Shown here: positions 21,723 to 27,109 of the stretch, one piece after another
Numbering within the stretch: position 1 is the first letter of the stretch
How the letters are laid out: every line of letters starts with the position of its first letter
Assembly (NCBI RefSeq): GCF_003966915.1
Contig: NZ_AP018150.1
Coordinates: 2,542,001-2,606,000, forward strand
Direction of reading: 5' to 3'
Origin: Mycoavidus cysteinexigens
GTDB taxonomy: Bacteria; Pseudomonadota; Gammaproteobacteria; Burkholderiales; Burkholderiaceae
Length of the DNA stretch: 64,000 bases
Notes under the pieces: model-generated
Told to the model about the DNA's origin: nothing
Seen by the model: only the letters and a program-made list of their open reading frames with translations
The model's database searches: none
Position numbers and translations under genes: made by a program

Positions 21723-22637
21723 ATGATCACAAAACCTGAATTAAAGAGATCCGAACTAGGCGGAGCACTGGCTCTTACTCCCGGTATGCCGTTACTTGGC
21801 CCATTAGGCGATCTTAATGCCTATATCCAAGCTGTTAGCCGTATTCCAATGCTGCAAGCAGAGGAGGAGCAACAGCTCGCCACGAATTATCGTGAACATG
21901 GGACGCTTGAATCAGCTCGCAAGCTGGTTTTATCCCATCTACGCTTGGTTGTCTCAATCGCCCGTGGCTACCTAGGCTATGGATTGCCCCATGCCGATCT
22001 GATTCAGGAAGGCAATATTGGGCTAATGAAAGCCGTGAAACGCTTCGATCCTCAGCAAAATGTGCGACTCGTATCCTATGCAATTCACTGGATTAAGGCC
22101 GAAATTCATGAATATATCTTGCGTAACTGGCGGATTGTAAAAGTCGCCACCACCAAGGCTCAGCGCAAACTTTTCTTCAATTTACGCCGCCATAAACGGG
22201 GCGTGCAAGCACTGACTTCGAGTGAAGTCGATGCTTTAGCTAAAGAGTTGAACGTCAAGCGTGAAGATGTGACTGAAATGGAAACCCGTATGACGGGCGG
22301 AGATGTTGCGCTAGAAGGACAAATTGACGACAATGAAGAATCCTTTGCGCCCATTGCATATCTCACAGACATCCAACATGAGCCAACTGAGGTGCTGGCT
22401 AATCGCCAGTTTGATCGTTTACAAAGCGATGGCTTAGCAAGTGCGCTAAATACGCTCGATGCCCGTAGCCGCCGCATTGTTGAAGCGCGCTGGTTACAGG
22501 TTGATGCGGAGGGTTCTGGCGGCGCAACGTTGCATCATCTGGCGGCTGAATTCGGCGTCTCGGCCGAGCGCATTCGCCAAATCGAAGTCAGTGCCATGAA
22601 AAAGATGCGCAATGCATTGACTGCTTATACAGCTTGA
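21723..22637 (+). CDS. rpoH: Heat-shock sigma factor RpoH (sigma-32)
   Basis: The 304-residue sigma-70-family protein has region 2 (VLSHLRLVVSIARGYLGYG, then DLIQEGNIGLMKAVKRFDP), the RpoH box QRKLFFNLRR near residue 145, which is diagnostic for sigma-32, and region 4.2 near the end (AAEFGVSAERIRQIEVSAMK). It directs RNA polymerase to heat-shock promoters. AAGGAG lies five bases before the ATG. The CIRCE element upstream indicates HrcA control. Length is close to that of Burkholderia RpoH. Confidence 0.96.
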   Translation: MITKPELKRSELGGALALTPGMPLLGPLGDLNAYIQAVSRIPMLQAEEEQQLATNYREHGTLESARKLVLSHLRLVVSIARGYLGYGLPHADLIQEGNIGLMKAVKRFDPQQNVRLVSYAIHWIKAEIHEYILRNWRIVKVATTKAQRKLFFNLRRHKRGVQALTSSEVDALAKELNVKREDVTEMETRMTGGDVALEGQIDDNEESFAPIAYLTDIQHEPTEVLANRQFDRLQSDGLASALNTLDARSRRIVEARWLQVDAEGSGGATLHHLAAEFGVSAERIRQIEVSAMKKMRNALTAYTA

Positions 22638-23196: not shown

Positions 23197-24330
23197 ATGA
23201 AATTATTTAGAATAATCAACTTAGTTTTTTGGGGAATATTTATTTCCGCCTGCGGCGGAGGAGGAAATGAAGAGGGAAAAATAGATCGGCAATACTTTAA
23301 TAAAACTTTACCACCCTATTCTGAACTTAAAATAAAAGAAAATGATGCCATTCATGCGATTAATACAACTTTAGGGGGAAATTTTATTTCATCGCAGGAT
23401 TACGAGCATTACATGAATTTAATTGCTATTAAGGAAAATCCATATGTTCCAAAAAAACAACTTAGGCTCATGCGAAAATATTATGATGGCGGCAAAATAA
23501 CCCACGAACTCTATACACAAGAAAGATTAGGAACAGAGTGGGATCAATTTCCGTGTATTAATGCTATTCCATACAAAGATTATATCCGCCAAATAGGAAT
23601 TTTTGGTTACCCCAAACATATGCAGAATGCTATCCATACGGTTAATTTTCTTTATAATTTAGCGCTCCCTTATCAATTTAATACAATTGAAAATGCCAAT
23701 TTATTCAATGCAAATCGAATAATGATTGATATAAAAGGATATTTTTTAGTATTACGTCAAGAAGATAATGGAGAGTGGTGGTTACTAGATAATTTTTCTG
23801 AAGGTCCAAAGAAAATTTCAGGAAGTCATATAGAGTGGTTAAATAATTTAACGCAATCTTTCCCCAGCATCAAAGTGCTATGTTTCACTTCAGAAGATCT
23901 TCTCAAAGCAGAAAACTCTACTAAAACGCTACCCGCTTCTTTCATAGATTCTATGACTGACAGCGATCCATTCGGAGAGGATTTTATAGAAGAATTCTTC
24001 TATTTTTCATTTCTCAGTCCATCAGACCGATTAACGCAAATAGGTGAAGATCTTTATTTAGAAAAATCTGCATTTAAAGATAACACCTATAGATTCCTAT
24101 ATGAATTTACCGCAGAGCTACTCAACAAAAGTACAGAGCAAAGAATTAGAGTATTGGAGATTTTTAACTCTTTCATCGAGCGCAGTCCAGAATCTATCTT
24201 AAATTCTGGTTTAAGAAAAAGTTACAGAGAACAAATTAATCCAGCTACGATTGATGCGTTTAGAAAAGCTGCACGTAAACAGGATATTTTAAGGTTCAAT
24301 CAGATGGACTATTATTGGATAGTTGATTAA
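23197..24330 (+). CDS. Lipoprotein with a degenerate Josephin-like domain
   Basis: The 377-residue protein has a lipoprotein signal (hydrophobic 5-18, lipobox ISA-C19). Residues 47-225 align by eye with the Josephin domain of ataxin-3: NDAIHAINTTLGGNF matches the start helix around the catalytic Cys, and KGYFLVLR, then EWWLLDNFSEGPKKIS, match the His/Asn strands up to the conserved G-P. The catalytic Cys14, His119 and Asn134 positions hold Asp50, Tyr182 and Asp198, so peptidase activity is unlikely. Residues 230-377 are not recognised. The gene is clearly AT-rich with AGA/ATA/TTA codons, suggesting transfer, and has no Shine-Dalgarno. The family call is inference; the lipoprotein call is stronger. 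Confidence 0.55.
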   Translation: MKLFRIINLVFWGIFISACGGGGNEEGKIDRQYFNKTLPPYSELKIKENDAIHAINTTLGGNFISSQDYEHYMNLIAIKENPYVPKKQLRLMRKYYDGGKITHELYTQERLGTEWDQFPCINAIPYKDYIRQIGIFGYPKHMQNAIHTVNFLYNLALPYQFNTIENANLFNANRIMIDIKGYFLVLRQEDNGEWWLLDNFSEGPKKISGSHIEWLNNLTQSFPSIKVLCFTSEDLLKAENSTKTLPASFIDSMTDSDPFGEDFIEEFFYFSFLSPSDRLTQIGEDLYLEKSAFKDNTYRFLYEFTAELLNKSTEQRIRVLEIFNSFIERSPESILNSGLRKSYREQINPATIDAFRKAARKQDILRFNQMDYYWIVD

Positions 24331-24429: not shown

Positions 24430-24465
24430 CCGTCTCATTGAGTACTCCCGTACTCAATGAGACGG
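24430..24465. terminator. Perfect hairpin between the lipoprotein gene and clpA
   Basis: A 16-base perfect stem, CCGTCTCATTGAGTAC with its reverse complement, encloses a four-base loop (TCCC). It lies between two convergent genes, 99 bases after the lipoprotein stop and 36 bases after the clpA stop. There is no long T-run on either side, so it may act as a weak bidirectional terminator or an mRNA 3'-end stabiliser. Confidence 0.55.
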
Positions 24466-24500: not shown

Positions 24501-26798
24501 TCAGTCAATCTCCGCCGTTTCAGGGTTTGTATTGTGTGACTCGCCGTTTTCATCAAAGATAAGTTGCACGTTGTTTTGCTGGTCCACATCGACCTTAACA
24601 CGCCCCCCATTTGACAGCTTGCCAAATAGTAATTCATCTGCCAAGGCGCGCCGGATAGTGCTTTGAATCAGACGTTGCATCGGCCGCGCGCCCATGAGTG
24701 GGTCGAAACCGCTGCTAGCAAGATATTTGCGCAGCTCATCAGTAAAAATAACCTCTACCTTCTTTTCATGGAGCTGCTCTTCCAATTGGATTAAGAACTT
24801 GTCAACTACACGCAGAATAATTTCTTCGTTGAGTGGGCGGAAGTTAATGATTGCGTCCAACCGATTACGAAACTCAGGAGTGAAGGTCTTTTTAATTTCG
24901 GCCATTTCATCGCCAGCTTCGTTGCGCGTAGTAAAACCAATTTTGGCTTTTTGCAGGGCTTCAGCGCCCGCGTTGGTGGTCATGATGACAATCACATTAC
25001 GGAAATCGGCTTTACGGCCATTGTTATCCGTCAATGTGCCATGATCCATCACTTGCAACAGAAGATTATAAATATCTGGATGCGCTTTTTCGATTTCATC
25101 CAGCAGCAACACGCAGTGCGGCTTTTTCGTGATCGCCTCCGTTAAGAGGCCACCTTGATCAAAGCCAACATAACCCGGCGGCGCGCCGATTAAACGGCTG
25201 ACCGCATGGCGCTCCATGTACTCAGACATATCAAAACGCGTCAGCTCAATCCCCAAGGTGAAAGCAAGTTGACGGGCGACCTCGGTTTTACCAACGCCCG
25301 TTGGGCCTGAGAATAGAAACGCGCCGATAGGTTTGCCAATTTGACCCAGTCCGGCACGCGCCATTTTAATCGCGGAGGCCAAAGCTTCAATGGCTAGGTC
25401 TTGTCCAAAGACCACGCTTTTGAGGTCGCGCTCAAGGGTCTGCAATTTGCTGCGATCATCGAGTGAAACGCTTTGGGTCGGCACGCGGGCGATTTTTGCA
25501 ATAATTTCCTCAATTTCAGTTTTACCTACGATCTTTTTTTGTTTCGATTTAGGTAATACGCGTTGCGCTGCGCCCGCTTCATCAATCACGTCAATCGCTT
25601 TATCAGGCAAATGCCGATCCGTAATAAAACGGGCCGATAATTCAGCCGCAGCGGATAATGCAGCGCCAGAATATTTAACATTGTGATGCTCTTCAAAGCG
25701 CGACTTCAATCCACGCAAAATCGCTATGGTTTGGGCCACCGTGGGCTCAGACACATCAATTTTTTGGAAACGCCGCGACAAAGCGGCATCTTTATCAAAA
25801 ATCCCGCGATACTCGGTAAAAGTAGTCGCTCCAATGCATTTTATTTGTCCTGACGAAAGCGCTGGTTTTAATAAGTTTGATGCGTCTAGCGTCCCGCCTG
25901 AGGCAGCGCCTGCGCCAATCAAAGTGTGAATTTCATCGATAAAAAGTATCGCATGAGGGCGCTCTTTTAATTCTTTAAGCACTATTTTTAAACGTTGCTC
26001 AAAATCGCCACGGTATTTAGTGCCGGCCAGCAAAGCGCCCATATCTAATGAATAAACCACTGCATTCGCCAATATATCAGGCACTTCGCCACGCGTGAGC
26101 CGCCAGGCAAGCCCTTCCGCGATAGCCGTTTTACCTACGCCGGCCTCCCCTACTAATAGCGGGTTGTTTTTCCGACGTCGGCACAAAACTTGCACTACGC
26201 GTTCAACTTCGGGCTCCCGCCCAATCAATGGATCAATGCGCCCTTCTTTGGCGAGTTGATTCAAGTTCTGCGTAAATTGCGCTAGCTGGGTTTCTTTTTG
26301 TCCAGCCGCTCCGTCTTGATCTGTGCTGGCATCCGCCGATTTTGTGGCTTCACTCTCGCCGGTTTTAGCGATTCCGTGCGCAATAAAATTGACCACATCT
26401 AAGCGCGCGATCCCTTGTTGCTGCAAGCAATAAACCGCATGCGACTCCTTTTCTCCAAAAATCGCAACCAATACATTTGCGCCGGTCACTTCTTTTTTGC
26501 CATTTGAGGCAGATTGGACATGCATAATCGCACGCTGAATCACCCTCTGAAAACCTAATGTAGGCTGTGTATCGGCGTCTATCGAACCCGGTACGACCGG
26601 AGTGTTATCGTGAATAAAATGGTGCAAATTGTGGCGCAGGTCATCAATGTTGGCCGCGCAAGCGCGCAATACCTCAACCGCGGTCGGATTATCTAACAGC
26701 GCTAGCAATAGGTGCTCTACCGTAATAAACTCATGCCGGGCTTGGCGCGCTTCCATAAACGCCATATGCAAGCTAACCTCTAGTTCTTGAGCGATCAT
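24501..26798 (-). CDS. clpA: ATP-dependent Clp protease ATP-binding subunit ClpA
   Basis: The 765-residue AAA+ unfoldase feeds proteins to ClpP. The N domain (1-140) starts [14 protein letters not shown]; two AAA modules carry Walker A GEAGVGKT (about 210) and GPTGVGKTE (about 490), and Walker [12 protein letters not shown] and [11 protein letters not shown]. The IGF loop that binds ClpP is present in [10 protein letters not shown] start at the ATG at 26798, which has GGAGAG upstream, rather than six codons earlier. It overlaps clpS by four bases. Confidence 0.96.
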
Positions 26799-27109
26799 GT
26801 TCTCTCCATAACGCATCGCAGCGGATGACCGGCCTGCTTTGCATGGGTGGTTACCTGCTTAACTTTGGTCATTGCCACATCACGCGTATAAACCCCACAA
26901 ATTGCTTTACCTTCGCAATGTACCTTCAGCATAATCTGAATTGAGGCCTTTTGGTCTTTTCTAAAGTATTTTTGAAGAATCATGACGACAAACCCCATCG
27001 GCGTAAAGTCATCATTTAACAACACGACTTGATACATAGGCGGCGGTTTTATTTTTTGCTTTTGCCGCTCAACCACAATGTTATCTTCGAGATTCGAGAA
27101 AATCGCCAT
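26795..27109 (-). CDS. clpS: ATP-dependent Clp protease adaptor ClpS
   Basis: The 104-residue adaptor delivers N-degron substrates to ClpA. The flexible N-terminal tail is followed by the core [24 protein letters not shown] and GHPLRCVME. The substrate-pocket residues NDD and the His of KVH are present. Position Met-Gly-Phe replaces the commoner Met-Glu-Phe next to the pocket, a minor oddity. The only in-frame ATG gives [10 protein letters not shown]. Stop and the clpA start overlap (ATGA), so the pair is coupled. Confidence 0.95.

Follow-up and report, generated by a model that had tools for sequence, protein, structure and literature searches.

The gene at positions 23197 to 24330 of the window, i.e., the 64,000-nucleotide stretch of the Mycoavidus cysteinexigens genome analysed here (G000:C1:2542001-2606000), encodes a lipoprotein whose main domain, judging from homology, descends from Josephin-type deubiquitinases and which, by alignment to its intact homologues, lacks three of the four catalytic residues (Gln, Cys, and His). 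M. cysteinexigens B1-EB is an endohyphal Burkholderiaceae symbiont with a circular chromosome of 2,795,004 bp, in which the components for type II, III, and IV secretion are incomplete (PMC5877345). Its genome was available as a single contig (G000), and the relatives discussed below come from two congeners (G001 and G002) and two Glomeribacter gigasporarum genomes (G030, BEG34; G010, BEG1). The features of the gene and its surroundings, in window coordinates, are as follows:

23197..24330, + strand: gene (with stop codon) for the Josephin-type pseudo-enzyme lipoprotein of 377 aa; ATG start, zero internal stops, full-length relatives
23197..23250, + strand: lipoprotein signal peptide, residues 1-18; MK, a hydrophobic stretch, and ISA before Cys19, as in most paralogues
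23242..23253, + strand: lipobox I16-S17-A18-C19; Gly at residue +2, the outer-membrane type under the Lol rule
23314..23931, + strand: Josephin-type pseudo-enzyme domain, about residues 40-245, from blastp, hhalign, and Foldseek
23329..23331, + strand: Lys45, at the oxyanion-Gln position in the family alignment
23344..23346, + strand: Asp50, at the catalytic Cys position in the family alignment
23740..23745, + strand: Tyr182, in place of the catalytic His, followed by the retained aromatic gatekeeper Phe183 (family alignment)
23788..23790, + strand: Asp198, at the third catalytic position, kept (Asn or Asp in intact homologues; family alignment)
23932..24327, + strand: C-terminal region, residues 246-377, predicted to be mostly helical with low confidence
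24430..24465, no strand: perfect 16-bp inverted repeat in the gap separating the pseudo-Josephin and clpA-like genes; loop of 4 bases, T run absent

The initial annotation, made from the letters alone, had read this gene as that of a lipoprotein with an ISAC lipobox, and translation confirmed the reading: ISAC19 stands behind a hydrophobic stretch (read by eye), and GGGG follows Cys19 directly. The Gly at +2 and the Gly-rich tether are compatible with a surface-exposed lipoprotein. No clear ribosome-binding site or promoter was seen in the sequence upstream of the gene. Downstream, the inverted repeat is a possible bidirectional transcription end for both of the genes flanking it.

On its own, the window protein does not match the Josephin profile PF02099 even at E <= 10, and scans against Pfam, NCBIfam, and PHROGs assigned it to no family; a DUF7688 match (E = 0.11) was dismissed as chance. 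When the PDB was searched with the protein alone, a single match was retrieved, to PaJOS (E = 0.95); the aligned part is the strand that follows the catalytic His. Two tandem proteins of the same genome, Mc653 and Mc693, match PF02099 in their N-terminal halves at 35.6 and 38.4 bits, respectively, and the Glomeribacter proteins do so at 30.5 and 28.9 bits, the cut-off being 26 bits. (RelB and PilO matches of the tandem proteins, at E = 0.0055 and 0.023, fell under the cut-off and were set aside.) In blastp comparisons, the window protein matched the intact N-terminal half of Mc653 (Mc653N) at 30% over 245 aa with E = 1e-23, the Glomeribacter protein Gg1 with E = 2e-22, and the dead C-terminal halves of the tandem proteins at 47-50% identity with E about 1e-102. 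Since it thus aligns to an intact paralogue half whose protein exceeds the PF02099 cut-off, we assign its domain to the Josephin type.

Profile comparisons point the same way. A profile built from the five domains that bear Cys and His retrieved human ataxin-3-like (5.9e-9), ataxin-3 (4.4e-7), and Josephin-2 (1.2e-5), and it aligns both the Cys block and the His/Asn block with ataxin-3-like and Josephin-2. A profile of the dead domains only, compared with one of the intact domains only using hhalign, gave 99.9% probability and E = 1.8e-31 over 206 columns, and the best PDB match of the dead-only profile was PcJOS (9fn4) at 0.0011. The likeness of two blocks to the ataxin-3 Josephin domain, which had first been noticed by eye, is therefore beyond chance, and the conserved G-P noticed in the His/Asn strands is indeed present, in the motif EGPKKIS.

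At the Gln, Cys, His, gatekeeper, and third catalytic positions, the window protein has K45/D50/Y182/F183/D198. The same five positions read Q/C/H/F/D in Mc653N and in both Glomeribacter proteins, and Q/C/H/F/N in Mc693N; in the C-terminal halves they read A/I/S/F/D (Mc653C) and E/I/S/I/D (Mc693C). Of the residues of an active deubiquitinase (Cys, His, oxyanion Gln, and Asn/Asp), the window protein therefore keeps only Asp198. The initial annotation had named Asp50, Tyr182, and Asp198 as the catalytic positions and counted all three as dead. The residues are as it stated, and Cys and His are lost; Asp198, however, is not a lost position, because homologues with an intact Cys and His also have Asp or Asn there, and what the protein has actually lost is Gln (now Lys45), Cys (now Asp50), and His (now Tyr182). 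The aromatic gatekeeper is retained as Phe183, directly after the catalytic His position; in known enzymes this residue contacts ubiquitin Gly75 (PMC7391069). Homologues elsewhere that keep the Cys/His pair, which had been suggested as a check, do exist in the form of the two Glomeribacter proteins. Other family members lack single residues: the 261-aa type has Cys and His and lacks the third catalytic residue, the G002 protein has Gly at the third position, and a 430-aa protein of G001 keeps the Cys and has no His. The last of these (L014:4346-5638) is a mosaic, with an intact-like Cys helix, a dead-like body, and Ala at the His position, and is probably also inactive, as judged from its residues.

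Structure prediction was of limited use. AlphaFold with the full-length protein as a single sequence yielded an unusable model (pLDDT 38), and a model of residues 30-245 from a three-row alignment, into which rows from the whole-genome searches did not enter, reached a mean pLDDT of 55.6, its strand half, mostly at 65-90, being the only confident part. A Foldseek search with the latter model placed a Josephin-ubiquitin complex at ranks 1-2 (best E = 1.7e-3, with low TM-scores), and its first 20 rows were all Josephins, Josephin-like clippases, or TssM. VIA-align put ataxin-3 on top at Z 6.8, little above unrelated chains, and because unrelated folds (triphosphate tunnel enzymes and Cif, at Z 4-6) follow so closely, we exclude this result as proof of fold. 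A papain-like Josephin fold of the domain is thus supported by the model, not proven.

The initial annotation had described Josephin domains as eukaryotic deubiquitinases, which is too narrow, as bacterial Josephins exist in Simkania, Parachlamydia, and Pigmentiphaga, among others (PMC10643670; PDB structures). With the Josephin domain of ataxin-3 and JOSD2 (PF02099, MEROPS C86), the window protein shares the order of the two blocks, the gatekeeper after the His position, and the pattern W..L[ND]S...GP; it differs in lacking the Gln, Cys, and His, in its lipoprotein signal, and in an extra helical C-terminal region, and the Mycoavidus/Glomeribacter family as a whole has its Cys and His blocks spaced further apart. 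Simkania, also an intracellular bacterium, encodes the Josephin-type proteins SnJos1 and SnJos2 in adjoining genes, but these have all the canonical active-site residues and no gatekeeper, whereas the window protein has the gatekeeper, is dead, and bears a lipoprotein signal (PMC10643670). The closest solved bacterial relatives are PaJOS (9g7g), BpJOS (9f5t), and PcJOS (9fn4/9fpa). These are catalytic enzymes, whereas the window protein lacks the catalytic Cys and His and has a membrane anchor. Clippases are recognized by their cutting ubiquitin before its C-terminal Gly-Gly. A bacterial Josephin family with ubiquitin C-terminal clippases is attributed to Mol Cell 2025 in a reference of PMC12751079. 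Burkholderia pseudomallei TssM, a Foldseek neighbour of the domain model, also belongs to an intracellular member of the Burkholderiaceae and strips ubiquitin from the bacterial surface, removing ester-linked ubiquitin from lipopolysaccharide (PMC10371091); it differs in being of the USP family and active. A search for USP-type enzymes in the five Mycoavidus and Glomeribacter genomes gave no match, and its control was equally silent.

PF02099 matches were found in 3 of 398 Burkholderiaceae genomes, all of them Mycoavidus or Glomeribacter and both genera endofungal, and in G000 alone among 300 genomes of the order and 398 of the phylum, with no clear match to further Josephin genes elsewhere in these two samples; the limits of this distribution are approximate, since the search misses the divergent members in G001 and G002. 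A scan of GTDB genomes with the window protein as single query gave no confirmed match, the same scan with the family alignment retrieved two Glomeribacter genomes only, and a search of viral contigs for the family found none.

In M. cysteinexigens, the main cluster of the family lies at about 535.5-541.2 kb of the contig (G000:C1; L013:5489-11192) and comprises three related genes for Josephin-type lipoproteins of 693, 261, and 653 aa, i.e., the two tandem intact-plus-dead proteins and the one that has Cys and His and lacks the third residue. The cluster is located between arnT and arnF-like genes of the operon for 4-amino-arabinose (L-Ara4N) modification of lipid A, all on one strand, and this position is the same in all three Mycoavidus genomes. 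Five other Burkholderiaceae genomes carry arnF within about 20-120 bp behind arnT, which makes an insertion the most likely origin of the Josephin genes at this site. A degenerate remnant of the arnT 3' end (about 60% protein identity in pieces with the frame broken, and 82% DNA identity over 146 bp) is found between two of the Josephin genes (L013:8973-9172); its presence inside the cluster indicates that the unit was duplicated in tandem, arnT end included.

The window gene stands apart from this cluster, between a sigma-factor gene (21723-22637) and the clpA-like gene (24501-26816). It had been called an AT-rich gene in an accessory region, and this holds: its G+C content is 33%, compared with 50% for the window, and in G001 and G002 the sigma-factor and clpA-like genes are adjacent without it. 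A copy between the sigma-factor gene and clpA is found only in M. cysteinexigens among the genomes compared; the gene is not a lone acquisition, however, but a member of a family that is present in the Mycoavidus/Glomeribacter lineage and was later duplicated. The 559 bp upstream of the window gene are unique in the genome, and neither an arnT remnant nor a paralogue flank lies beside the gene. A recent arrival by way of an insertion element was considered and rejected, as these comparisons revealed neither a mobile element nor a copied flank.

In the domain tree, the window protein, both C-terminal halves, and the 430-aa protein of G001 fall into one clade with support 100/99, separate from the other domains. 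In Mc653 and Mc693, both from this genome, a domain of the dead clade thus follows an intact Josephin domain within one fused protein. Outside the Cys helix, the window protein agrees with the C-terminal halves at 82-88 of 171 positions and with the N-terminal halves at 44-46 of 170. Within the helix the order is reversed, with agreement at 12 of 21 positions with the N-terminal halves and at 3-5 of 21 with the C-terminal halves, which leaves two possible histories: the middle of a tandem gene was lost, or the helix disappeared from the C-terminal halves after fusion. The C-terminal region (residues 246-377) is shared by dead-clade relatives only, being absent from the intact N-terminal halves and the Glomeribacter proteins, and among dead-clade members it is as conserved as the Josephin-type domain. 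These roughly 130 aa matched no known family. We would add as a separate observation that this stretch (23932-24327) could carry a binding function of its own.

The homology, active-site, and lipobox evidence agree with the initial suggestion of a Josephin-type pseudo-enzyme borne as a lipoprotein by a host-associated bacterium. As for what such a protein might do, we propose, on the strength of sequence features, that it is probably a pseudo-deubiquitinase, anchored in the outer membrane and binding the ubiquitin of the fungal host alongside sister proteins that are active. The lipid anchor would hold the protein at the outer membrane, given the Gly at +2, with the domain directed towards the fungal cytoplasm; were the lipoprotein to face the periplasm instead, it would never meet ubiquitin. 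The retained elements of the putative ubiquitin groove (Phe183, the WWLLD...GP strands, and the scaffold of the Cys helix) may then grip ubiquitin or its chains without cutting them, although the individual ubiquitin-contact residues could be assigned only with low confidence. A dead Josephin as a ubiquitin binder is plausible, since a Josephin has been observed to bind di-ubiquitin in titrations that precluded cleavage (PMC2928749). In this way the protein might hide ubiquitin marks on the symbiont from the autophagy receptors of the host, or might present them to the intact sister proteins, and the tandem intact-plus-dead proteins would represent a built-in version of the same arrangement, one half serving for catalysis and the other for capture. 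The location of the intact sisters in a lipid A modification operon would make ubiquitin on the bacterial surface an attractive target.

A distinctly less probable account, yet the strongest competitor, is that the scaffold has been repurposed, the dead domain binding some other host or bacterial partner, e.g., holding or regulating the intact sisters, with the C-terminal region carrying the function. The conservation of that region within the dead clade and its restriction to it would suit this account, as would the poorly kept Cys-helix segment of the C-terminal halves, whose groove may for this reason be altered. The window protein, on the other hand, keeps both the Cys-helix scaffold, at the 12 of 21 positions it shares with the intact N-terminal halves, and the gatekeeper Phe, which speaks against this account.

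It seems unlikely that the gene is a decaying duplicate, turned into a pseudo-enzyme merely by the end of selection, a frequent fate of genes in host-restricted genomes. The confinement of the locus to M. cysteinexigens, the lack of a clear ribosome-binding site or promoter, the low G+C content, and the loss of single catalytic residues in other family members would all be expected of such a duplicate, but the gene has 377 open codons, its homology is full-length with similarity even over the body, and two other dead domains are kept within long intact genes. Pairwise dN/dS was 0.39-0.40 between the window gene and the C-terminal halves, 0.51 between the two C-terminal halves, and 0.25 between the intact N-terminal halves, these being rough values obtained by simple counting, with dS approaching or exceeding 1 in several of the comparisons. 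A ratio of about 0.4 speaks against pseudogene decay and for purifying selection on the dead domain, apparently somewhat relaxed relative to the intact one. A rewired hydrolase that uses Asp50, Tyr182, and Asp198 and still acts on ubiquitin or another substrate is highly improbable, for although Asp198 is kept in all three dead domains of the genome and acidic or polar residues line the pocket, the C-terminal halves have Ile and Ser in place of Asp50 and Tyr182 and hence no conserved new triad, and we know of no papain-fold enzyme with an Asp/Tyr/Asp set.

We found no literature linking Mycoavidus or Glomeribacter to Josephins or deubiquitination, and as far as we could find, lipoprotein-anchored bacterial Josephins in tandem active-plus-dead form, together with their arn-operon setting, are new. 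Human Josephins are ubiquitin esterases (PMC7848729). A wider and quite tentative idea, which we hold with little confidence, is that endofungal Burkholderiaceae carry an anti-ubiquitin coat on their outer membrane, i.e., lipoproteins, encoded in the lipid A operon, that pair intact Josephin domains (as ubiquitin esterase or isopeptidase) with dead domains that hold ubiquitin, and that would remove or mask ubiquitin attached by the host to the symbiont surface, possibly to lipopolysaccharide.

A lineage-specific, membrane-anchored Josephin family in symbionts of Mortierella and arbuscular mycorrhizal fungi, absent from the other Burkholderiaceae searched, offers a handle on whether fungi recognize cytoplasmic bacteria by means of ubiquitin, as animal cells do. 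The family also forms a natural series of intact domains, single-residue losses, fully dead domains, and tandem intact-plus-dead proteins, in which the route from deubiquitinase to ubiquitin binder can be studied. If the anti-ubiquitin coat is real, fungal hosts would have to tag the bacteria inside their cells with ubiquitin, and dead deubiquitinases would be in use as capture modules.
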